A stretch of DNA of 64,000 nucleotides from Halobacteria archaeon HArc-gm2 (lineage in GTDB: Archaea; Halobacteriota; Halobacteria; Halobacteriales; Haloarculaceae): positions 124,001 through 188,000 of the forward strand of contig JAOPKE010000006.1 of NCBI GenBank assembly GCA_025517465.1, read 5' to 3'. The number at the start of each line of letters is the position of its first letter. Positions within the stretch are counted from its first letter, which is position 1. The notes below the pieces were generated by a model. It made no database searches. It worked only from the letters and a program-made list of their open reading frames with translations, and had not been told where the DNA came from. Position numbers and translations under genes: made by a program. Below, one piece after another: positions 12,788-43,410 of the stretch.

Positions 12788-14215
12788 TCAGGTTGCGCGC
12801 CGGACCTGGGCCTCGACGACCCTGCGGACGTCGTCGTCGTCGATCGCAGCGAGACGCGAGTCCTCACGAAGCGTCTCGAGAATCGTCCCGGGAGCCTCTT
12901 CGAACCCGAACTCGAGGAACAGTCCCGAACTCGGTCCGCAGCTCTGCCGTCTGTAATCCACGAGCGAATACGTCGTCATCTCCTTCATCTTGTTGACGTA
13001 GGTCTCCCGGTGGTATCGCTCGGCATCGATCGCGTCGGTGAGGAACCTGTACACACGATACCCAGCCGTACTGCGGGCCGACTGGTCGTCCGTTTCGGCA
13101 GCGACGGCCGCAGTCGCGTAGAGACAGAGCTTCTTCTGCGTACTGATGCCGCGAACGACTTCGAGCACGCGGTTCTTCTCGACGCTGTCCCGCGCCTGGC
13201 GAACGTGTCCCTCACGGACGGCCTGTTCGTCGTTCCGTTCTGCGAGTTCGCCAGCGATCCGCAGCAGGTCGATTGCTGTGCGTGCATCACCGTTCGCCTG
13301 GGCTGCAACGGCCGCGGCCAGCGGAACGACGTCCTCGTCGAGGACGTCCGCGTAGAAGGCGTCTCGGCGGTGGCGAAGGATCGACCGGAGCTGGGTCGCG
13401 TCGTAGTCGTCAAAGTGGACGTCTTCGGGCGTGAAGGTGCTCAGGGCCCGAGTTCCCACGTCGTCCAGCACCTTCGCGTCGTTGGAAATCGCGACGACGG
13501 AGACGTGTGCATCGAGGTCGTTCATCGCACCGGCACGGGAGAGCTGGTAGAGTAACCGGGAGAACGCCGGCGTTTGCCTGTCCCGTCGACCGACGAGCAT
13601 GTCGAGTTCGTCGAGGACGAACGCCACGGCGTCGAAGTGCCGGCCGACGATCCGATACAGTTCCTCCCACTTCTCCTTCGTCGCGACACCCTGTCTCGGA
13701 ACCTCGGCGTCGACGAGCGCTTCGTCCGCGGCACGACGTGCGAGTTCGGAGACGGCGACGCCGAGGGTATCCAGATCCTGGCAGTTGACCTCGATCGTTC
13801 CGAATCGAATATCACGCGTCTCACAGGCCCTGCCGAGGTTCTTGCAGACGGCACTGGCGACGAGTGATTTACCGGTCCCCGACGGCCCGTACAGGAAGAG
13901 GTTCGGCGGCGGGTTGTCCCCGAGGGTGACTCTGAGCATCTCTGTCACTGCCTGGAGCTGCTCGTCACGACCCACGATCCGGTCCTCCTCGACGACGTGA
14001 TTCGGGTCGAGCAGCGACCGGTCACGGATGACTCCTCCCCGGTGGTCGAACTCCAGTAGCAGATCCGTGATCGACTGTGATTCGCCCTCCGTTGCGGATC
14101 TGGCCGCCGATGACGGGTTCTCGGCGACAGCAGAACCGGTCGCTGGTGGTCCCTGCTCCCTCGTTTCGTCCTTCGATGTCCCGACATCGTCTCGGGGAGC
14201 CTCACCGTTTTCCAT
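12788..14215 (-). CDS. Orc1/Cdc6 replication initiator
   Basis: The 475-residue AAA+ protein has an N-terminal low-complexity extension (about 1-47), then Walker A GPSGTGKS (110-117), Walker B FVLDELD (199-205), sensor-1 VAISND (about 240), an RALSTF region and a C-terminal winged helix (about 370-470). Archaeal Orc1/Cdc6 proteins bind origin recognition boxes and load MCM. The roughly 950 nt upstream are noncoding and contain one G-string box (14543-14562) that recurs three times in the origin at 50 kb. This could be a second origin or an element-borne initiator. Confidence 0.9.
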   Translation of the reverse strand: MENGEAPRDDVGTSKDETREQGPPATGSAVAENPSSAARSATEGESQSITDLLLEFDHRGGVIRDRSLLDPNHVVEEDRIVGRDEQLQAVTEMLRVTLGDNPPPNLFLYGPSGTGKSLVASAVCKNLGRACETRDIRFGTIEVNCQDLDTLGVAVSELARRAADEALVDAEVPRQGVATKEKWEELYRIVGRHFDAVAFVLDELDMLVGRRDRQTPAFSRLLYQLSRAGAMNDLDAHVSVVAISNDAKVLDDVGTRALSTFTPEDVHFDDYDATQLRSILRHRRDAFYADVLDEDVVPLAAAVAAQANGDARTAIDLLRIAGELAERNDEQAVREGHVRQARDSVEKNRVLEVVRGISTQKKLCLYATAAVAAETDDQSARSTAGYRVYRFLTDAIDAERYHRETYVNKMKEMTTYSLVDYRRQSCGPSSGLFLEFGFEEAPGTILETLREDSRLAAIDDDDVRRVVEAQVRRAT

Positions 14216-15172: not shown

Positions 15173-15565
15173 ATGGACGACGTAGCGGACGACCCCGTCG
15201 AGAAACTCGAGGTCTGGTGTGCGGGGAACGACTGGTGTCCGGTCACGACGACCGCCACGTTGATCGGGAAGAAGTGGCACCCCGTGATCGTCCACCGGTT
15301 GCTCGAACACGGCCCGAGCGGCTTCAACGAGCTCAAGGCAAACGTCGACGGCATCTCCAGCAAGGTCCTCTCGGACAGCCTGGACGACCTCGAAGCGAAC
15401 CAGCTCGTCGACCGCGAGATCATCAGCGAGAAACCGTTCCGCGTCCACTACTCGCTGACCGACCACGGGCGGTCCCTCCAGCCCGTCATCTACGCGATGC
15501 GCGACTGGGGGACGGAACACCTGAAGCGGCCCGAGCAGGCCGAGGACGCGGCCTCCGGTGGCTGA
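15173..15565 (+). CDS. HxlR-family winged-helix regulator
   Basis: The 130-residue protein has the full HxlR pattern: WCPVTTTATLIGKKWHPVIVHRLL, GPSGFNELKANVDGISSKVLSDSLDDLEANQLVDR and a wing ending VHYSLTDHGRSLQPVI. Cysteines occur at about 16 and 22; in some HxlR members such residues sense aldehydes or electrophiles, so a thiol-sensing role is possible. It is divergent from nothing and convergent with the rhodanese/MBL gene. Its targets are unknown. Confidence 0.88.
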   Translation: MDDVADDPVEKLEVWCAGNDWCPVTTTATLIGKKWHPVIVHRLLEHGPSGFNELKANVDGISSKVLSDSLDDLEANQLVDREIISEKPFRVHYSLTDHGRSLQPVIYAMRDWGTEHLKRPEQAEDAASGG

Positions 15566-15664: not shown

Positions 15665-16813
15665 CTACGCGGCACAGTTGTTCGGGCCCAGTTCGAGTTC
15701 TGTCGCCTCGCTCTCGTCGTCGACGGTGTCTCTACCGGTGTTGACGGCGATGACCGTCTCGTAGTTCGGGGGCTTCTCCGGGGCGTCTCCGGCCAATCGT
15801 TCGACGAACGCTTCGCGGTCCAGCCCGAGGAAGTCGAGTTCGTCGCGGAGGTCCCCGAGCCGGGCCTCGAGGGGGTCACCCGGCGACCCGTTCTCGTAGC
15901 GCCCGTCGCTCGTGACGGTGAGGTGGCCCGGCAGGATGGTCGTCTCGTCTGGGAGGTCGAGGATCGTCTCGTGGAGCGAGTCGTACAGCAGTTCCGCGCC
16001 GCGCGAGGCGTCGTCCTCGCCGAACTGGAGTTCCGTCCGGCCGACGGAGTCGACGAACAGCGTATCGCCCGTCAACAGGAGTTCCCCGTCGACGAGGTAG
16101 TTCGTCATCTCCGAAGTGTGGCCAGGCGTGTGGAGCGCCTCGATCTCGACGTCGCCGACCTCGACGACGTCGACGTCCCCGAGCGGTTCGTATTCGTACT
16201 CGACACCGCGTTCGCTGGCTGCCTCGCCGAGGTGGTAGGGCACGCCGACCTCGTCGGCGAGTGCCGGACTGCCGGAGATGTGGTCGGCGTGGACGTGCGT
16301 ATCCAGCACGCGTGTGATGGAGAGCCCGGCGTCCTGGGCAGCGACTTTGAACTGGTCGGTCTGTCTGGTCGCGTCGACTACGGCTGCCTCTTCGGCGGCT
16401 TTCGAGCCGACGACGTAGCCGAGACAGCCCTTCGCCCGGCGCTGGACCTGCCGAACGACGAGGTCGTCGCTCGCCGTCTCGATGGGGACGACCTCATAGC
16501 GCTTGCTCCACGCCTCCATCCCGCCAGTGACGACCGAGACGTCGTCGTAGCCGTGTTCCTCGAGGTCGAACGCGAACGGCGTCGACGTCAGCCCCTTCCC
16601 GCAGATGGCGACGACCGGTCCGCCGTCGACCAGTGCGTCCACCTCGTTCAGTTGGTCCTCGCTCAATCCCTCGTCAGGGTCGTATGGAACGTTCGCCGCG
16701 TCGCGCACGTGCCAGGCCTCGAAGCTGTCCTCGGGACGCACGTCGATGAGCGTGAACTGTTCGCCGGCGTCGATCTCGTCCGCGAGTTGTTCCGCAGTGA
16801 TGTTTGTGACCAT
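15665..16813 (-). CDS. Rhodanese-MBL fusion (persulfide dioxygenase-like)
   Basis: The 382-residue protein has an N-terminal rhodanese domain with catalytic Cys71 in CGKGLTS. A metallo-beta-lactamase domain of the ETHE1/glyoxalase-II type follows, with HVHADH at 173-178 plus later TPGHT, GDTLF and LPGH ligands. ETHE1-type enzymes oxidise glutathione or other low-molecular-weight persulfides to sulfite, and rhodaneses move sulfane sulfur. The C-terminus ends ELGPNNCAA, repeated in the paralogue at 43.9 kb. It lies downstream of the SoxB-like gene on the same strand, separated by 131 nt that hold a tandem repeat, so co-transcription is likely. Confidence 0.88.
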   Translation of the reverse strand: MVTNITAEQLADEIDAGEQFTLIDVRPEDSFEAWHVRDAANVPYDPDEGLSEDQLNEVDALVDGGPVVAICGKGLTSTPFAFDLEEHGYDDVSVVTGGMEAWSKRYEVVPIETASDDLVVRQVQRRAKGCLGYVVGSKAAEEAAVVDATRQTDQFKVAAQDAGLSITRVLDTHVHADHISGSPALADEVGVPYHLGEAASERGVEYEYEPLGDVDVVEVGDVEIEALHTPGHTSEMTNYLVDGELLLTGDTLFVDSVGRTELQFGEDDASRGAELLYDSLHETILDLPDETTILPGHLTVTSDGRYENGSPGDPLEARLGDLRDELDFLGLDREAFVERLAGDAPEKPPNYETVIAVNTGRDTVDDESEATELELGPNNCAA

Positions 16814-16840
16814 CGTATCTCACCTGTGTGGTGTCGTTCG

Positions 16841-16934
16841 CCGTTCGTCGGAACTGTCGAGTACGCCGTTCGTCGGAACTGTCGAGTACGCCGTTCGTCG
16901 GAACTGTCGAGTACGCCGTTCGTCGGAACTGTCG
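16841..16934. repeat. Tandem repeat, 25-bp unit, about 3.8 copies
   Basis: The units start at 16841, 16866, 16891 and 16916 with core CCGTTCGTCGGAACTGTCGA. They fill the gap between the SoxB-like gene and the rhodanese-MBL gene. A 25-bp unit cannot keep a reading frame. Confidence 0.9.
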
Positions 16935-16944
16935 GGGCCGCCGC

Positions 16945-18735
16945 CTAGCGCGTTCGATTACGCCCTTCGTCGGGAAACGTGTTCCTGCGCGGAATCATGG
17001 ACGTCTCGCAGTACGCCTCGCCGGCCGCGTAGTCGACGCCGGGCTGGATGAACGGATACGCCCCGTCTGCGGGCGTGTTCTGGGCTCGGCCGCCGTCGTC
17101 GGCGGTCTCGACCAGCCCCATCACCTCGTAGTCGACGGGCGAGTGGTCTTCGAGATACTCGACGACGACGTCGACCGGGATGGTCCCGTCGTCGACCTCG
17201 ACGTCCTGGAACGGGAACCCGCAGTTGCCGAGGTCGCGTTCGGGATCACCGGGTCGACGGAACGTCGCCACCGAGTACGTCTCCTCGGGGTCGATTGGTT
17301 CGCCGTCGATCTGCATCTCGACGAGGCGACGGCCGCGCTTGGCGGTCGGGTCGACGGTCACCGCGACGTTCGAGGAGAAGCTACGGACGCGACCGTCCTC
17401 CTGGTCGTAGGGGTACGGCGTGAAGTTGTCCTCGAGGAACGCCTCCACGTGGCTCGTGAGTTGCTGGCCGTAGGCGACGCCACGGGCGACGGGCGCCGTC
17501 ATCGGGAAGAACGTGTATAGATCGCCGAGCGTGATCTCGCCGGGCGGGATAGCGGTCCCGTACCGGAACCCGTGCGAGACGGCGAGGTCCGTATCGAAGT
17601 GTGCCCGCAGCGCGTCGTTGAACAGCGTGTTCCACGCGCTCTCGAGGAACGACTGCCGGTAGAGTGGGTTTTCGGTCCGGCCGACGACCGTATCCAGCGG
17701 ACGGTCGAGCGTCCCGGCCCCTCGTTCGAATCCTGGCTCGTCCTCGAGGAAGGGCGCGCGCTCGGCTTCGACCGTCTCCGCCGCCTCGGCGTCCAGTTCC
17801 GGCGTGTGCTCGCCGTCCTCGGTCAGACAGTAGAGGTGGTGTCGGAACTGCACCTCGCCATCGCGAACGCGGAGGTCCACGCGGCCGAGCGCCTCGCCCA
17901 TTCCGGACTCGACGACGACGGTTTCGGTCTCCGGGACGACGATGGGGTCGTAGGTGTACTCGTGGGTGTGCGCGCTGAACAGCACGTCCACGCTCGCACA
18001 GTCCTTGGCGGCCTGGACCATCCACGGGAGGCCGATCTCGGTGACCGCGACCACGACGTCCGCGCCGTCCTCGCGGGCGGCCTGTGCGGACGCTTCGAGG
18101 AGCGCGGGGTGCTTGCCGAAGCGGTACTTCCCCTCGGAGAACGCGGGTGCCATCCGGTCGACGTAGACGTTCGTCATCCCGACGACGCCCACAGAGAGGC
18201 CACCGGCGTCGAGGATCCGGTACGCGTCGTACAGTCGCTCGTCGGTCTCCCAGTCGTAGAGGTTGTTCGCGAGAACCGGGGCGTCGAGTGCGTCCATCAG
18301 TTCCACGAAGTTGCCGTCCTCGGCGGCCTCGTTCGAGTAGTCCCAGTTGCCGGGGACGTAGACGTCGGGCGCGACGTGTTCGTTGATGGGGTCGAGCATC
18401 GCTCGTCCATCGGTGTAGGTAGTCACGGCGGAGCCGTGGAACGTGTCGCCACTCATGAGCGTACAGACGTCGTAGTCCTCGCGGAGCTCGTCGAGTTTGG
18501 CCGCCAGGATCGGGACGCCACCCGCACGCTCGATGACCCGGTCGTCGTCTCCGAAGTCGAACGCCGGAGCCGAATTGGGGTTGTCGTAATAGACCTGGTG
18601 GCGCGGCGTCAACTGTCCGTGGAGGTCGCTCACGTGAGCGAAGACCACGTCGGCGTCCTCGTCGTCGTCGCCGCGACCGACGGGGGCGCCGTCGAGGGAT
18701 CGCCACTCGCCTGTGAGCGTTTCGTTCCCGTTCAT
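16945..18735 (-). CDS. SoxB-like 5'-nucleotidase-family phosphoesterase
   Basis: The 596-residue protein has the two-domain 5'-nucleotidase layout. Metal motifs are DLHGQL (37-42), SGDTFHGS (95-102), GNWDYS (129-134) and SAHTH (254-258). The W within the third motif and the flanking sequence (GSAVTTYTDGRAMLDPIN) resemble SoxB, the Mn-dependent thiosulfohydrolase that releases sulfate from SoxY-bound sulfur, more than ordinary nucleotidases. The C-terminal domain includes RRLVEMQIDGEPIDPEETYSVATF. Unlike canonical SoxB there is no Tat signal, and no SoxYZ or SoxXA is present, so it would act in the cytoplasm on an unknown carrier. It is followed by the rhodanese-MBL gene. Confidence 0.7.
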   Translation of the reverse strand: MNGNETLTGEWRSLDGAPVGRGDDDEDADVVFAHVSDLHGQLTPRHQVYYDNPNSAPAFDFGDDDRVIERAGGVPILAAKLDELREDYDVCTLMSGDTFHGSAVTTYTDGRAMLDPINEHVAPDVYVPGNWDYSNEAAEDGNFVELMDALDAPVLANNLYDWETDERLYDAYRILDAGGLSVGVVGMTNVYVDRMAPAFSEGKYRFGKHPALLEASAQAAREDGADVVVAVTEIGLPWMVQAAKDCASVDVLFSAHTHEYTYDPIVVPETETVVVESGMGEALGRVDLRVRDGEVQFRHHLYCLTEDGEHTPELDAEAAETVEAERAPFLEDEPGFERGAGTLDRPLDTVVGRTENPLYRQSFLESAWNTLFNDALRAHFDTDLAVSHGFRYGTAIPPGEITLGDLYTFFPMTAPVARGVAYGQQLTSHVEAFLEDNFTPYPYDQEDGRVRSFSSNVAVTVDPTAKRGRRLVEMQIDGEPIDPEETYSVATFRRPGDPERDLGNCGFPFQDVEVDDGTIPVDVVVEYLEDHSPVDYEVMGLVETADDGGRAQNTPADGAYPFIQPGVDYAAGEAYCETSMIPRRNTFPDEGRNRTR

Positions 18736-19021
18736 CGTGAGGCGACTGTCCCTACGGACGCCGAGCGTTCATGAGTTGTGGTTACAATTACAAATACTGC
18801 ACACGACCGTCGAAGAACGCTTGAACGAGTACCTGGGACGCAACCGCGCCTTGTGGACCGCGATCGGATAACGAAACAAATTCGAATCGACACGCTGTCT
18901 CGGATGCGAAACTCGATTCGGCGTTTCGCTTACGCTTCGTAGTGGCAACTTCCCTAAGTGATGCGGTCGTAGTCTCGGCCAGACAGATGCGTCTGCTACC
19001 GTCGAAACGGAGGCGGTATCG
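18736..19021. other. Divergent promoter region between SoxB-like and TauE genes
   Basis: The 286 nt separate the two divergent sulfur genes. The region contains the weak 21-bp element at 18776-18796 for the minus-strand gene. I see no gene. Confidence 0.5.
18776..18796 (-). promoter_or_regulatory. 21-bp sulfur-regulon element (weak copy)
   Basis: On the minus strand: TATTTG, nine bases, CCACAA, ending 40 nt before ATG 18735 of the SoxB-like gene. It departs from the consensus by a shifted G, so confidence is lower than for the other sites. Confidence 0.4.
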
Positions 19022-19807
19022 ATGACGACTAACTGGGTAACGACGGGACTGTCTGCGCTCGTCATCCTCGTTGCGTCCGTCGTTCACGGGATCGCCGGGT
19101 TCGGCTTCGCGCAGGTGTCGATGGGGCTGATGCCGCTGTTTCGGTCGCCCTCGAGTGCGTCGATCATCTTCACGGCGACGGCGGTCGTGAGCAACGCTCG
19201 CGTCTGGTGGAGCGTCCGGGACGCCTTCGACTGGGAGAAGTGGATCGTTCCCGTCGGCGGACTCGTCGTCGGGTTGCCGCTCGGTATCTACGTGTTCAGT
19301 CGGTTCGACCCGGCACAGATGCGCGTCGCCATCGGGGCGGTTCTCGTGCTGGCGGTCGTCGTCGTCGGTGCGACTCAGCAACTCGACGTCGTCACGGACT
19401 GGATCGAGGAAAAGGACTACAGGCCGGGGAAAATCGTCGGCGTGACGGCCGGGCTGCTCGCGGGGATTTTGGGCGGCGCCGTCGCCGTCCCCGGCCCGCC
19501 GATGATCGTCTACGGGGCGTTCATGTCGGCGAGCGGGTTCTGGAGCGACGAGGAGATGAAGGCCACGTTTACCGCCTTCTTCGGGACGCTCATGTTGTAC
19601 CGTCTCGGGAGCCTCACCTATACGGGAGCCGTGACGACGCCGCTGCTGATCGAGGCTGTCGTCGCCATGCCGATGGTGTTTCTCGGTGCCTGGTTCGGCG
19701 TGTACATCTTCGACCACATTCCCGAGCGCATCTTCCAGTGGCTCGTACTGGTACTCCTCGCCGTAAACGCGGCCGTCCTCCTGTTCACGGCGGTTCCGGA
19801 ACTCTAA
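19022..19807 (+). CDS. TauE/SafE-family anion exporter
   Basis: The 261-residue protein has about eight hydrophobic segments in two repeats. Typical motifs are HGIAGFGFAQVSMGLMPL in the first helix pair and GVTAGLLAGILGGAVAVPGPPMIVYGAF at the start of the second half. The family exports or imports sulfite, sulfoacetate and other organosulfur anions. Placed divergently from the SoxB-like and rhodanese-MBL genes, export of sulfite made by persulfide oxidation is a reasonable inference. Confidence 0.85.
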   Translation: MTTNWVTTGLSALVILVASVVHGIAGFGFAQVSMGLMPLFRSPSSASIIFTATAVVSNARVWWSVRDAFDWEKWIVPVGGLVVGLPLGIYVFSRFDPAQMRVAIGAVLVLAVVVVGATQQLDVVTDWIEEKDYRPGKIVGVTAGLLAGILGGAVAVPGPPMIVYGAFMSASGFWSDEEMKATFTAFFGTLMLYRLGSLTYTGAVTTPLLIEAVVAMPMVFLGAWFGVYIFDHIPERIFQWLVLVLLAVNAAVLLFTAVPEL

Positions 19808-21505: not shown

Positions 21506-23683
21506 CTACTCGCGGAAGCCGAGCAACCGTAGCCCGTTCAGCGACACGAGGACCGTCGAGCCCTCGTGCCCGACCACGGCGAGGGGGAGCGGAATCCCCC
21601 GGAGCAAGATCGTGCCGACCATGAGCGCGATCGCACCGAAGGCGATCGCGAGGTTGACGGTGAGCGTCCGTCGGGTCTTCCGTCCGAGCCCGAGGACGTA
21701 GGGGATCTTGCTGAGGTCGTCGCCCATCAACACGACGTCGGCCGTCTCGAGCGCGACGTCGGTTCCGGCGCCGCCCATCGCGATCCCCAGCGTCGCCGTC
21801 GCCAGCGCCGGTGCGTCGTTGACGCCGTCGCCGACCATCGCCACGTTCTCGTGGCGTTCGACCAGTTCTTCGATAGTCGCGACTTTCTCCTCCGGCAGCA
21901 GTTCCGCCTGCACTTCGTCGATGCCGACCTCGTCGGCGATCCGCTCGGCGACGCGCTCGTTGTCGCCCGTCAGCATGACGACGTGCTCCACGCCGAGCGA
22001 GCGGAGGTCGGCGACCATCTCGGCGGCCCCGGGACGGACCGTGTCGGTGAACGCGAGCCACCCCAGCACGGTGACGTCGCCGTGGTCCTCCCGCGCGACG
22101 ACGACGCTCGTTTTCCCCTCTGCCTCCAGGGACTGGAGCCGGTCGAGCCCGGCGTCGATCCCGTCGATCGCCGCGTCTTCGAGGACGGTCGCGAAGTAAC
22201 TTCGATTCCCGATGTGGATCGTGGCGTCTTCGACGTCGGCGCGGACGCCTTTCCCCGCGGCCGACTGGAACCGCTGTGCGTCGGGGACGTCGAGTGATCG
22301 TTCTTCAGCCGCTGCCACCGTCGCACGCGCGAGGTGATGCTCCGAGCGGGCCTGCACCGCGGCGGCGAGCGAGAGCAGTCCGTCGTCGGTCACCGTTTCG
22401 TCGGCCGTCTCGCGGACGGAGACGTCGGTCAACTGCGTGTCGCCCCGCGTGAGCGTCCCCGTCTTGTCGAAGGCGACCGCGTCGATGTTCGCCGCCGTCT
22501 CGACGTGCTCGCCGCCCTTGAACAGGACGCCCTGCTTGCCGCCGGAGGCGATCGCCGACAGCACCGCTGCGGGCGTGGAGATGATGACCGCACACGGCGA
22601 GGCCGCGACCATGAGCGTCATCGCGCGGTAGAACGTACTGTCGAACTCGCTACCGAGCGCGAGCGGAAGCGCGATCGCTGCGATGGTGAGTGCGAACACG
22701 CCGAGGACGTACGGCTGTTCGAGGCGGTCGATGAGCCGCTGTGTCGGCGCCTTCTCGCTCTGTGCGCGTTCGACCATGTGGATGAGGCGGCTGATCGCCG
22801 ACTCGTGGGCCTGTCGCGTGACCTCGATTTCGAGACTGCCGCTCTCGTTGATCGTCCCGCCGAACACCTCGTCGCCGGGTTCCTTCGGCACGGGGACGGA
22901 CTCGCCGGTGAGCGAGGCCTGGTCGACCGTCCCCTCGCCGGCCGCGACGACGCCGTCCAGCGGGATGTTGTCGCCGGGACGGACGACGAACACGTCACCG
23001 ACGGCGACGTCGTCGATGGGGACGGTGACCTCTTCCCCATCGCGGAGCACCTGGGCTTCGTCCGGCCGCATCTCGACGAGGGACTTGATCGCCCGGCGCG
23101 AGCGCCCGATGGCGTAGTGCTGGAGCGTGTTCGACAGCGAGAACAGGAAGAGCAGCATCGCCCCCTCGAACGGCGCACCGATGGAGAGCGCACCGAGCGC
23201 GGCGACGATCATCAACAGGTCGATGTCGACCGCGCGGTGGCGGAGCGTCTCGATCGCGCCTTTGAGCCCGTACCAGCCCCCGAAGGCGTAGGCGACGCCG
23301 TAGCCCGTCCACGTGAGGAGTGCGGGGCCGTCGAGCCATCCCGATACCAGGCCAGTCACCATCCCGAGCAACGTGAGTCCGACGAACGTCGCCTCCCGTC
23401 TGAGGTCCGAACGGGTGCTCACGTCGTCCGTCGCCGTCTCCTCGTCGTCCTGGATCGAGACGTCCCGGTCGCGGACAGCGTCTCGAATCGTCGCTTCGGA
23501 CGTGACCGCCCCGTCGTAGGTAACCCGGGCGCTCCCCGTTCGGAAGGAGACGTCGACGTCGTGGACGCCAGAGACGCTCTCGAGGTGGCGTTCGAGTGCC
23601 CGCGCCCCCGCTTTACCACGACCGCCTCGCCGCTCGATGGGGACAGTACACGTCGACAGTGGGGGAGACTCGGTAACGGCCAC
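21506..23683 (-). CDS. Zn/Cd/Pb-exporting P1B-type ATPase
   Basis: The 725-residue protein has an N-terminal HMA-like domain, eight membrane segments, TGES in the actuator domain, the ion-site motif SPCAV, which is typical of the Zn2+/Cd2+/Pb2+ subgroup (ZntA/CadA), FDKTGTLT as phosphorylation site, and GDGVNDAPAL. The start is GTG 23683. The HMA domain lacks the CxxC pair (only Cys12 is present), so it cannot bind metal in the usual way. The convergent or adjacent winged-helix gene upstream may control it. Confidence 0.9.
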   Translation of the reverse strand: MAVTESPPLSTCTVPIERRGGRGKAGARALERHLESVSGVHDVDVSFRTGSARVTYDGAVTSEATIRDAVRDRDVSIQDDEETATDDVSTRSDLRREATFVGLTLLGMVTGLVSGWLDGPALLTWTGYGVAYAFGGWYGLKGAIETLRHRAVDIDLLMIVAALGALSIGAPFEGAMLLFLFSLSNTLQHYAIGRSRRAIKSLVEMRPDEAQVLRDGEEVTVPIDDVAVGDVFVVRPGDNIPLDGVVAAGEGTVDQASLTGESVPVPKEPGDEVFGGTINESGSLEIEVTRQAHESAISRLIHMVERAQSEKAPTQRLIDRLEQPYVLGVFALTIAAIALPLALGSEFDSTFYRAMTLMVAASPCAVIISTPAAVLSAIASGGKQGVLFKGGEHVETAANIDAVAFDKTGTLTRGDTQLTDVSVRETADETVTDDGLLSLAAAVQARSEHHLARATVAAAEERSLDVPDAQRFQSAAGKGVRADVEDATIHIGNRSYFATVLEDAAIDGIDAGLDRLQSLEAEGKTSVVVAREDHGDVTVLGWLAFTDTVRPGAAEMVADLRSLGVEHVVMLTGDNERVAERIADEVGIDEVQAELLPEEKVATIEELVERHENVAMVGDGVNDAPALATATLGIAMGGAGTDVALETADVVLMGDDLSKIPYVLGLGRKTRRTLTVNLAIAFGAIALMVGTILLRGIPLPLAVVGHEGSTVLVSLNGLRLLGFRE

Positions 23684-25597: not shown

Positions 25598-26044
25598 TCA
25601 CTCGGACGAGGAGAACTCGTCGAACAGTGCGACGACCCGCCGTTCGATTTCGTCACGGATCTCCCGCACCCGATCGAGGTCCTGGCCATCGGGGTCGTCG
25701 AGCGCCCAGTCGCGGACGTCGACCGTGTCACCGACGTCGCCGACGTCGAGCGTCGAACAGCCCATCGTGGCGACGTAGTCACAGGAGCGCAGTTCCTCCA
25801 GGGAAATCTCTCTCGGCGTCCGGTCGGCGAGGTCGAACCCCGCCTCGTCCATCACCTCGACGACTTCGTCGTGGACGTGGTCGGCCGGGTGGGTCCCCCC
25901 GGTCAGGATTTCGACGCGGTCGTCGAGTCCGCGTCGCTCTCGTTCACGTTCGGCGAAGGCCGTGGACAGCTGGGAGCGGCCGGCGTTCTGGACGCACACG
26001 AAGGCGATACGGATCGGGTCGGCTGTCTCAGTGTTGGGTGACAT
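25598..26044 (-). CDS. arsC: Arsenate reductase, low-molecular-weight phosphatase type
   Basis: The 148-residue protein has the catalytic P-loop CVQNAGRS (Cys17-X5-Arg23) of low-molecular-weight protein tyrosine phosphatases and thioredoxin-coupled ArsC. The D-P general acid is near LDDPDGQD. Arsenate is reduced to arsenite for export by the adjacent ACR3 pump, and thioredoxin (encoded at 29.2 and 58.9 kb) may recycle it. It is the last gene of the arsR-acr3-arsC operon, 10 nt after acr3. Confidence 0.85.
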   Translation of the reverse strand: MSPNTETADPIRIAFVCVQNAGRSQLSTAFAERERERRGLDDRVEILTGGTHPADHVHDEVVEVMDEAGFDLADRTPREISLEELRSCDYVATMGCSTLDVGDVGDTVDVRDWALDDPDGQDLDRVREIRDEIERRVVALFDEFSSSE

Positions 26045-26054
26045 GGTTCTGTGG

Positions 26055-27218
26055 TCAGTCGTCAGTTGCCGGGTCGGGCGGGGACGAATCGAGACTCCCG
26101 GTATCGAAGCCGCCCCAGTCGTACCGTCGCTGGAAGTACAGCGCGACGTGGACCAGCGCGAGCAACACGGGCACCTCGATGAGCGGGCCGACGACGGTGG
26201 CGAAGGCGACGCCGGAGCCGACGCCGAACACCGCGACGGCGACGGCGATCGCGAGTTCGAAGTTGTTCGACGCCGCGGTGAAGCCGATGGCCGTCGTCGT
26301 CGAGTAGTCGGCGCCGATGCCCCGTCCCATCCCGAAGCTGACGAGAAACATCACGACGAAGTAGACGGTCAGCGGCACGGCGATGAGCAGGACGTCGCCC
26401 GGCGCGGCGACGATGTTGCCGCCCTGCGTGGCGAACATCACGACGATGGTGAAGAGCAACGCGACGAGCGTCAGCGGGTCGATCGTCGGGACGAACTCGT
26501 CGTCGTACCACTGCTCGCTCTTCGCGCGTGTGCCGACGTAGCGGGAGAGAAAGCCCGCTGCGAAGGGAATCCCGAGGAAGACGACGATGGCCTCGAACAC
26601 CTGCATCGGGGTGACGTCGAAGGTCGTGATCCCGGCGACGAGTGTCTCCATGCCCAGCAGCGGCGGGAGGAAGAGCGCGAAGAACCAGACGTACACCCCG
26701 TAGGTGACGATCTGGAAGAGGCTGTTGAACGCGACGAGACCGGTGACGTACTCCGTCGACCCGTCGGCGAGTTCGTTCCAGACCAGAACCATCGCGATAC
26801 ACCGGGCCATTCCGATGAACACCAGCCCGAGGAAGTACTCGGGGCGTGCCGGCAGTCCCGGGACCAGGCCGCTGAAGAATATCACCGCGAGCCCGAACAT
26901 CAGCGTCGGGCCGATGAGCCAGTTCTGGACGAGACTCAATCCGAGCACGCGCCAGTTACTGAAGACGGTCCGAAGTTGCGAGTAATCGGCCTTCGCCAGC
27001 GGCGGGTACATCATCAGGACGAGGCCGATTTCGACGAGGTGGAGCTCCTGGATCGGCCGGGTCACCGACGGCGCGACGAAGCCGAGGCCGACGCCGATGG
27101 CCATCGCACCGAAGATCCAGACGGTGAGGTACTTGTCGAGGAAGTCCATCGACCGCGGGTCGCCACAGCTCTCACACTCGCAGTCGGGGCCGTGGTCGTG
27201 GGCGTCGCCGTTACGCAT
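26055..27218 (-). CDS. acr3: Arsenite efflux permease ACR3
   Basis: The 387-residue protein has a Cys/His-rich N-terminus (HDHGPDCECESCGD) and about ten membrane helices. ACR3 features include MYPPLAKADYSQL and GLVFIGMARCIAMVLVWNELADG, in which the conserved Cys of ACR3 lies, and NFELAIAVAVAVFG. It exports arsenite, using the proton-motive force. Its start overlaps the 3' end of arsR by 8 nt. The N-terminal CxCxxC is an unusual extra that may bind As(III). Confidence 0.9.
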   Translation of the reverse strand: MRNGDAHDHGPDCECESCGDPRSMDFLDKYLTVWIFGAMAIGVGLGFVAPSVTRPIQELHLVEIGLVLMMYPPLAKADYSQLRTVFSNWRVLGLSLVQNWLIGPTLMFGLAVIFFSGLVPGLPARPEYFLGLVFIGMARCIAMVLVWNELADGSTEYVTGLVAFNSLFQIVTYGVYVWFFALFLPPLLGMETLVAGITTFDVTPMQVFEAIVVFLGIPFAAGFLSRYVGTRAKSEQWYDDEFVPTIDPLTLVALLFTIVVMFATQGGNIVAAPGDVLLIAVPLTVYFVVMFLVSFGMGRGIGADYSTTTAIGFTAASNNFELAIAVAVAVFGVGSGVAFATVVGPLIEVPVLLALVHVALYFQRRYDWGGFDTGSLDSSPPDPATDD

Positions 27219-27609
27219 CGCTCACGCTCCCCTCGAGCACGGTGACGAGTGCGACCGCGCGATTGGTGGCGCGGTACATCTTCCAGCGCCCGTCCTTCCG
27301 GGCGTCGACGAGGCCGGCGTCGACGAGCGCCGAGAGTGCGTGACTGAGCCCGCTCTCGCTCACGTCGACGACCGCGTGCAGCTCGCAGACGCAGAGTTCC
27401 TCCTCGGCCGCGACGAGGACGCGGACGAGCGTGTACCGCGTCTCGCTGGAGAGCGCCGAGAGCACGCCGAGTTCGGCGTCGACCTGCGCCGTCCCGAGGG
27501 CCGCTTCGAGGGTGCCGAGTTCGTCGAGTCGGCGCTCGACGTCCTCGTTTCGACACTCCCCGAGTTCGTCGTCGAGATATCGCCGCAGTCGGTCCGTCGC
27601 TTGTGCCAT
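27211..27609 (-). CDS. arsR: ArsR-family arsenite-responsive repressor
   Basis: The 132-residue protein is an ArsR winged helix: ALSSETRYTLVRVLVAAEEELCVCELHAVVDVSESGLSHALSALVDAGLVDARKDGRWKMYRAT. The CVC in ELCVCEL is the classical As(III)-binding site. It is the first gene of the arsenic operon and overlaps acr3. A BRE/TATA-like sequence (CGAAACC, then ATTAATT) lies about 27 nt before the start, on the minus strand near 27632-27648. Autoregulation is expected by analogy. Confidence 0.9.
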   Translation of the reverse strand: MAQATDRLRRYLDDELGECRNEDVERRLDELGTLEAALGTAQVDAELGVLSALSSETRYTLVRVLVAAEEELCVCELHAVVDVSESGLSHALSALVDAGLVDARKDGRWKMYRATNRAVALVTVLEGSVSDA

Positions 27610-42831: not shown

Positions 42832-43410
42832 TCAGATGAGGAGCTGGACGTCCGACTCGGCCATGTGCTGGAGCGCGGTGGCCGCGCCGACGCCGACGGT
42901 GACCTCGTCGTAGAACTCGGACTCGTCGTAGTCCATCAGTTCGATGGTCATCTGGCAGGCCTGGAGTTCGACGCCCTGGTCGAGGGACAGTTCGATGAGT
43001 TCATCGATGCTGGCCGTGCCGTTCTCGTCGATCTTCTTCTGCATCATCTTCGTCGCCATGCGGTCCATCCCCGGGAGCGCGGCGAGCGCGTTCGGCATCG
43101 GCATGCTCGGGTTGCCGACCGCCGAGAGCTGTAGGTTCTTGGAGTTCTCCTCGTGGAGGATGTCGAGCCCCCAGAAGGTGTGGAAGACGACGACCTCCCA
43201 GCCGAACGCCGCGGCCGTGCTGGCGAGGATAAGCGGGGGGTAGGCCATGTCGAAGCTCCCCTTCGTGGCGACGATGGTCATCTTCTTCTGGTCGTCGCCG
43301 ACGTCGGTCTCGAGCGTGGCGACCTTGTCCTCCAGTTCCTCGACGCGGGCCTGGAGCTGTGCCTCGGTCAGGGGCTCGTCGCCGTCCGACGACTGTGTGT
43401 CCGTGCTCAT
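42832..43410 (-). CDS. DsrE2-family sulfurtransferase
   Basis: The 192-residue protein starts with an acidic coiled coil, followed by a DsrE/DsrF/DrsH-like domain (MTIVATKGSFDMAYPPLILASTAAAFGWEVVVFHTFWGLDIL) with the conserved Cys152 in LQACQMTIELM. DsrE2 proteins often occur beside TusA and pass sulfur in dissimilatory and assimilatory pathways. It is in the same transcript as the second TusA, with its start 2 nt after the TusA stop. Confidence 0.88.
   Translation of the reverse strand: MSTDTQSSDGDEPLTEAQLQARVEELEDKVATLETDVGDDQKKMTIVATKGSFDMAYPPLILASTAAAFGWEVVVFHTFWGLDILHEENSKNLQLSAVGNPSMPMPNALAALPGMDRMATKMMQKKIDENGTASIDELIELSLDQGVELQACQMTIELMDYDESEFYDEVTVGVGAATALQHMAESDVQLLI

Follow-up and report, generated by a model that had tools for sequence, protein, structure and literature searches.

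A leaderless SoxB-like metallohydrolase linked to persulfide dioxygenase and TauE genes in haloarchaea

SoxB is a bacterial sulfate-releasing enzyme whose gene is used to mark thiosulfate oxidation, and a carrier protein is considered necessary for its action. Oxidation of thiosulfate to tetrathionate by a haloarchaeon was reportedly described by Sorokin in 2005. One of the closest described systems is that of the bacterium Erythrobacter flavus 21-3. As set out in the excerpts of PMC7608252 used here, it has no Sox complex but three thiosulfate-induced SoxB-domain proteins that are annotated as nucleotidases. One stand-alone SoxB is required for the conversion of thiosulfate/tetrathionate to zero-valent sulfur, with tetrathionate suggested as its substrate, and deletion of two of the three SoxB-like genes gave no visible phenotype. 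Tetrathionate as its in vivo substrate is supported in the sections used of PMC9426585, and the enzyme works after TsdA, a heme protein (PMC7608252, PMC9426585).

We found no description of a haloarchaeal SoxB-like protein in the open-licence PMC literature, which was the scope of our search. Three candidate precedents were rejected on the parts of the papers at hand: the name 'SoxB' in PMC3512248 belongs to a subunit of cytochrome oxidase, the soxB entries of PMC4414474 are limited to a table of metagenome reads with other taxa, and PMC9765009 mentions soxB for bacteria only.

The soxBL gene and its surroundings in HArc-gm2

The window is the whole stretch of DNA analysed, 64,000 nucleotides of Halobacteria archaeon HArc-gm2. 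A single open frame on its minus strand, from 18735 to 16945, fills the interval for which a SoxB-like enzyme had been predicted, and encodes 596 amino acids. We call this gene soxBL. The original prediction named the SoxB-like stretch SGDTFHGSAVTTYTDG and the motif GNWDY without giving a strand, and both lie in this minus-strand protein. The features around the gene are the following.

15173..15565, plus strand: regulator of the HxlR family (two Cys, WCAGNDWCP), transcribed towards the rhodanese-MBL gene
15665..16813, minus strand: 382 aa protein with a rhodanese domain (6-104) and an MBL persulfide-dioxygenase-type domain (133-297), with HVHADH and GRTELQ motifs
16839..16934, no strand: 25-bp tandem repeat in 3.8 exact copies, filling the space that separates soxBL from the rhodanese-MBL gene
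16945..18735, minus strand: soxBL, leaderless SoxB-like metallohydrolase, 596 aa, Metallophos and 5_nucleotid_C
18736..19021, no strand: divergent intergenic region between soxBL and tauE, 286 bp, presumably holding promoters
19022..19807, plus strand: anion exporter of the TauE/SafE family, 261 aa, transcribed divergently from soxBL

The two neighbours named in the original prediction are in place, with the rhodanese-MBL gene 131 bp downstream on the same strand and TauE/SafE across the 286 bp region. The closest PDB relatives of the MBL half are persulfide dioxygenases and their kin (3tp9, 4ysb and ETHE1 4chl). In most other cassettes these two genes stand about 62-103 bp apart, counted from soxBL to the rhodanese-MBL gene. 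The HxlR regulator may be a thiol or persulfide sensor. An HxlR gene 82% identical to it (L028:11819-12211) stands right behind a 66% identical soxBL at another haloarchaeal locus.

Further away in the window, a P-type ATPase gene (21506-23683) lies between the soxBL side and a row of arsC-, Acr3-type arsenite exporter- and arsR-like ORFs (25598-27609, named by eye). A Cdc6/Orc1-like ORF, also named by eye, occupies 12788-14215, which suggests a replicon origin near the cassette and matches its plasmid homes elsewhere.

The soxBL protein covers the Pfam domains Metallophos (32-260) and 5_nucleotid_C (350-491), and is encoded once in its genome. Its N-terminus has neither a twin-arginine motif nor a hydrophobic stretch, in line with the predicted lack of a Tat signal. 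The RR[ED]F leader found in all three SoxB controls is absent from it. In the 42 haloarchaeal sequences, wherever the region is present, no twin-arginine motif precedes the first metal motif; one locus (L009) shows a single hydrophobic stretch, and its frame is probably over-extended. By the pattern used, four of six haloarchaeal nucleotidases do carry the motif. From these patterns the soxBL enzyme is predicted to be cytoplasmic.

No sox gene is found close to soxBL, as had been claimed for soxYZ and soxXA, nor was a conjugating enzyme of the SoxXA/TsdA kind identified in its vicinity. The genome search for soxYZ that had been proposed as a check gave no match to the SoxY, SoxZ or SoxA models in the genome of HArc-gm2 (99.2% complete). 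The SoxZ search was positive in 3/3 Sox plasmids used as control, the SoxY control match was only sub-cut-off in one control genome, and the SoxA search stood without a positive control. Across 292 haloarchaeal genomes no SoxY exceeded the cut-off, with two sub-threshold matches.

Kinship with SoxB and with the nucleotidases

The top NCBIfam model for soxBL is SoxB (TIGR04486, 208.2 bits, E 1.7e-61), and the best nucleotidase model (UshA) reaches 57 bits, about 150 bits less. The same order holds for two divergent haloarchaeal relatives, with 191 versus 46 bits (L026) and 181 versus 47 bits (L028). It is reversed in the nucleotidase controls, which score 127 versus 166 (L060) and 128 versus 178 (L062) for two haloarchaeal proteins and 149 versus 317 bits for a Deinococcus one. 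True nucleotidases thus also reach 127-149 bits with the SoxB model, so that the margin rather than the raw score divides the groups. The curated cut-off of TIGR04486 is 550 bits, which soxBL misses and the Paracoccus SoxB control passes with 861. In the PDB the best match is the SoxB of T. thermophilus (2wdc, E 9.4e-31), followed by nucleotidases at 7e-12 or weaker. Together with the relatives at 38 haloarchaeal loci (57-90% identity), these matches put the family assignment far beyond chance as judged by sequence.

The strongest alternative is that soxBL has diverged within the UshA superfamily as an intracellular nucleotidase or phosphatase, acting e.g. on a sulfonucleotide or a phosphorylated metabolite and sitting by chance in sulfur islands. 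We consider this unlikely. Its two Pfam domains and the annotation of its homologues as 5'-nucleotidases would agree with such an enzyme, but the profile margin does not. The structure prediction that had been proposed was made with AlphaFold2. The model, built from 22 haloarchaeal sequences with a mean pLDDT of 60.7, ranks SoxB first by Foldseek (4.6e-28 against 6.2e-26 for the best nucleotidase) and by fold Z, where 31.4 against 30.5 is nearly a tie that leaves room for a nucleotidase. Because of this tie, we did not judge the metal site from the model.

The maximum likelihood tree has 45 rows, 23 of them haloarchaeal and eight of them nucleotidases, with the CpdB-kind nucleotidase L058 left out. 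The haloarchaeal proteins fall into a single clade, whose branch is long (2.34). This clade stands with the bacterial SoxB-like proteins and SoxB on one side, and the eight nucleotidases are on the other; Pontibacter3 branches between the two sides. The original prediction had singled out a position inside the nucleotidases as the outcome that would speak against it. Three such placements, picked after the tree was seen, were rejected by AU tests: with the haloarchaeal nucleotidases (p 0.00039), with the UshA/Deinococcus nucleotidases (p 0.0018) and with the Azospirillum/haloarchaeal nucleotidases (p 0.0047). A grouping of the haloarchaeal clade with all nucleotidases on one side of a branch is not rejected (p 0.434); this test probes only a basal position of the clade relative to the SoxB/SoxB-like group. 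Its union with true SoxB is not rejected either (p 0.469), and in the best tree it is a separate clade.

The residues of soxBL that align with the dimetal ligands of UshA, whose roles we take as commonly assigned, are D37, H39, D97, N130, E233, H256 and H258. Asn130 is retained as in the GNH nucleotidases, in keeping with a phosphohydrolase. The catalytic His of GNH (UshA His117) is gone, being Trp131 in soxBL and Trp in 42/42 haloarchaeal copies. A Trp also occupies this position in 3/3 SoxB and 10/10 bacterial SoxB-like proteins and in 0/8 nucleotidases, which read GNH in 8/8. Of the HWE motif of SoxB, soxBL shares the Trp and has Asn and Asp in place of His and Glu. Towards the C-terminus it carries S-x-G-[FWV]-R-[YWF]-G, a SoxB-type motif, and not the NGGGxR of nucleotidases. 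The positions of UshA Phe429 and Phe498, presumably the pair that stacks on the nucleobase, are Met412 and Arg494 in soxBL, and both are Phe in the haloarchaeal nucleotidase L060; these were read on six representative rows, where Phe498 is the less sure.

By these comparisons soxBL lies outside the tested nucleotidases, and the tree tests allow a place as sister to the SoxB/SoxB-like group as well as one within it. By profile score SoxB is the closest of the characterised enzymes. The claimed kinship with SoxB therefore stands, as that of a sister or outlier rather than of SoxB itself. We do not file soxBL as a canonical SoxB because its score is under the cut-off, it has no leader and no Sox partners were found with it.

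The cassette across haloarchaea

The linkage of soxBL to its two neighbours is conserved. The rhodanese-MBL gene is directly downstream on the same strand at 26/38 loci, tauE is within 3 kb at 26/38, and at least one of the two is present at 34/38, the exceptions being L028, L030, L032 and L038. With three extra regions the counts become 27/41, 27/41 and 35/41, as L069 and L070 have neither partner. Part of the neighbour gene calls came from a home-made heuristic gene caller. In the sample of 292 haloarchaeal genomes we found intact soxBL in 34 (in one of them it came out as two pieces within the same frame) and fragments or decayed copies only in five more, and 9/35 soxBL copies had neither partner. 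The TauE subfamily is nearly confined to soxBL genomes: it occurs in 24 genomes, 23 of which also have soxBL (Fisher p 8e-25, uncorrected for shared descent; the test assumes independence between genomes, and cassettes that move laterally break this assumption). The rhodanese-MBL family occurs in 154/292 genomes (E 1e-100) and is hence not exclusive to the cassette.

The composition of the cassette varies. At L023-L025, in Halomicrococcus and relatives, soxBL is accompanied by a different rhodanese-MBL protein, a different TauE, an Fe-S/NrfD fusion and a molybdopterin enzyme. The N-terminus of the molybdopterin enzyme in L040 has no Tat signal. If, as we assume, a Tat signal separates the two kinds, this leaderless complex would match PhsA/TtrA less well than a SoeABC-like sulfite dehydrogenase that faces the cytoplasm. 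In the genome of HArc-gm2 no close SoeA-like enzyme was found (best 29% identity over partial length), and two sulfite-oxidase-family genes are present. In the Natrinema group, DsrE and class V aminotransferase genes join the cassette. The sole DsrE-family match in the HArc-gm2 genome, marginal at 20.8 bits, is at window 42853-43287 (G000:C15:166853-167287). In a third group (L028) the HxlR regulator takes the place of the usual partners, and copper genes (multicopper oxidase, P-type ATPase) are common neighbours in the main clade.

Two soxBL copies (L013 and L021) lie on one plasmid of Haloferacaceae XH8, and the rhodanese-MBL frame of L021 is broken. L034 and L036 are truncated soxBL copies. 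Such paired, broken and truncated copies indicate that the cassette is easily duplicated and lost. It would move between haloarchaea, often borne on plasmids. We conclude that soxBL represents a real, conserved and mobile haloarchaeal branch in or beside the SoxB/SoxB-like group, whose gene neighbours link it to persulfide oxidation.

The role of the cassette may be protection rather than energy conservation. The chemistry would be the same, with soxBL clearing toxic S-sulfonated thiols or polythionates that form when copper, oxidants or sulfide act on the thiol pool, and with the dioxygenase and TauE as its partners in detoxification. We hold this to be improbable, somewhat more so than the nucleotidase alternative. 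The recurrence of multicopper oxidase, P-type ATPase, DUF302 and plastocyanin genes nearby, the ars-like and P-type ATPase genes of the window, and the patchy, often plasmid-borne distribution with decayed copies are what a stress cassette would show. However, the copper genes differ between clades whereas the persulfide dioxygenase and TauE recur, and the version at L023-L025 comes with a respiratory-type Mo/Fe-S/NrfD complex.

Proposed function and comparison with known systems

Sequence and gene context lead us to favour, by a small margin of confidence, soxBL as a cytoplasmic SoxB-like thiosulfohydrolase in an intracellular, SoxYZ-free module of sulfur oxidation or detoxification. The trio of soxBL, dioxygenase and transporter hints at sulfur oxidation without the usual carrier protein. 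The substrate, products and order of steps that we infer are as follows. The enzyme would cleave the end sulfonate from a thiosulfonate (R-S-S-SO3-, carried by a small thiol or a carrier) or from a free polythionate such as tetrathionate, releasing sulfate and leaving a persulfide. The persulfide would be handed to the neighbouring rhodanese-persulfide dioxygenase, which could also make or take thiosulfate, and be oxidised to sulfite; TauE would export sulfite or thiosulfate. In the divergent cassette, the leaderless SoeABC-like Mo/Fe-S/NrfD complex may oxidise the sulfite. The originally predicted action of soxBL with rhodanese-bound persulfide is putative in the same way. In the portion of PMC5336275 available to us, the SoxY thiosulfonate and not the sulfonate reaches the SoxB metals, and isolated SoxB gives no turnover of its SoxYZ conjugates; these observations favour a thiosulfonate as the soxBL substrate and suggest that assays may need partners.

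The metal site has one unusual feature. UshA H217, a metal-site His, corresponds to Glu233 in 42/42 haloarchaeal copies and is His in every non-haloarchaeal row compared. The spacing between E233 and H256 equals that of the Sphingobium His pair, so Glu233 is no gap artefact, and with it the activity of soxBL could be altered or lost. That this Glu in the second metal site, replacing the metal-binding His, abolishes hydrolysis and leaves a weak or repurposed SoxB fold that binds or senses sulfur species or metal is the least probable of the alternatives, since E233 is invariant and the other ligand positions are nearly invariant across the 42 copies, as expected of a working altered site.

More tentatively, and well short of our confidence in the module itself, we speculate that a mini-Sox cycle operates in the haloarchaeal cytoplasm and dispenses with SoxYZ, SoxXA and cytochrome c. 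In such a cycle a Glu-dimetal SoxB-like enzyme would free sulfate from a thiol-bound thiosulfonate, the rhodanese-fused dioxygenase would consume the persulfide, and the cassette would be mobile between genera. Haloarchaea are reported to have few c-type cytochromes, according to the excerpt of PMC4429474. If soxBL works as proposed, it would show that the active site of SoxB tolerates another metal ligand and still functions, and it would allow thiosulfate or tetrathionate to be taken to sulfate inside the cell in hypersaline systems.

The bacterial relatives point to a wider group. Ten bacterial proteins group with SoxB, of which seven are leaderless, two have leaders (Pontibacter2 and Runella) and one is truncated. 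The nine bacterial loci viewed, all on plasmids, include six with TusA, DsrE, YeeE, TauE, rhodanese or MBL/persulfide dioxygenase genes near the SoxB-like gene, and three (Bosea, Hymenobacter and Bradyrhizobium SK17) without such neighbours. A Pontibacter plasmid (L046) encodes three SoxB-like proteins close together: the first is leaderless and reads HWE, another has a hydrophobic leader and reads GNWE, and the third reads GNHD. The leaderless proteins, from Sphingobium, Pontibacter, Sporosarcina, Cohnella and others, resemble soxBL in the missing leader and in their mostly sulfur-operon neighbours. They are annotated as metallophosphatase or 5'-nucleotidase, and the four that were scanned, those of Sphingobium, Sporosarcina, Bradyrhizobium and Hymenobacter, all match the SoxB model best, at 298-335 bits. 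Sporosarcina and Cohnella share GNWD with soxBL. In contrast to soxBL the bacterial proteins keep the metal His and are shorter (about 480 aa), at about 26-30% identity. A leaderless SoxB-like branch annotated as 5'-nucleotidase hides putative sulfur chemistry in haloarchaea (34/292 genomes) and several bacterial phyla.

Among characterised enzymes, SoxB (TIGR04486; 2wdc and Paracoccus) shares with soxBL the Trp at the GNH position, a motif of the S-x-G-[FV]-R-W-G type and a Gln-containing stretch that is absent from nucleotidases. It differs in that soxBL scores under the cut-off, lacks the Tat leader, has GNWD for HWE and Glu for one metal His, comes without SoxYZ/XA and is about 25-31% identical. 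The UshA/NadN 5'-nucleotidases have the same two-domain fold and most of the metal ligand positions, but their catalytic His and the UshA stacking Phe pair are missing in soxBL. The SoxB of E. flavus is the nearest in setting: according to its published description in part, which is the basis of this likeness rather than sequence, it is a bacterial SoxB-domain protein without soxYZ, clustered with an MBL/rhodanese gene. The same combination, a SoxB domain without SoxYZ adjoining a persulfide dioxygenase/rhodanese, is found at soxBL. A new archaeal variant of sulfur oxidation had been proposed for this locus. Since a stand-alone SoxB without SoxYZ beside rhodanese/dioxygenase genes is already described, with genetic evidence, in the excerpts of PMC7608252, the novelty of soxBL lies in its haloarchaeal, leaderless and Glu-substituted form.
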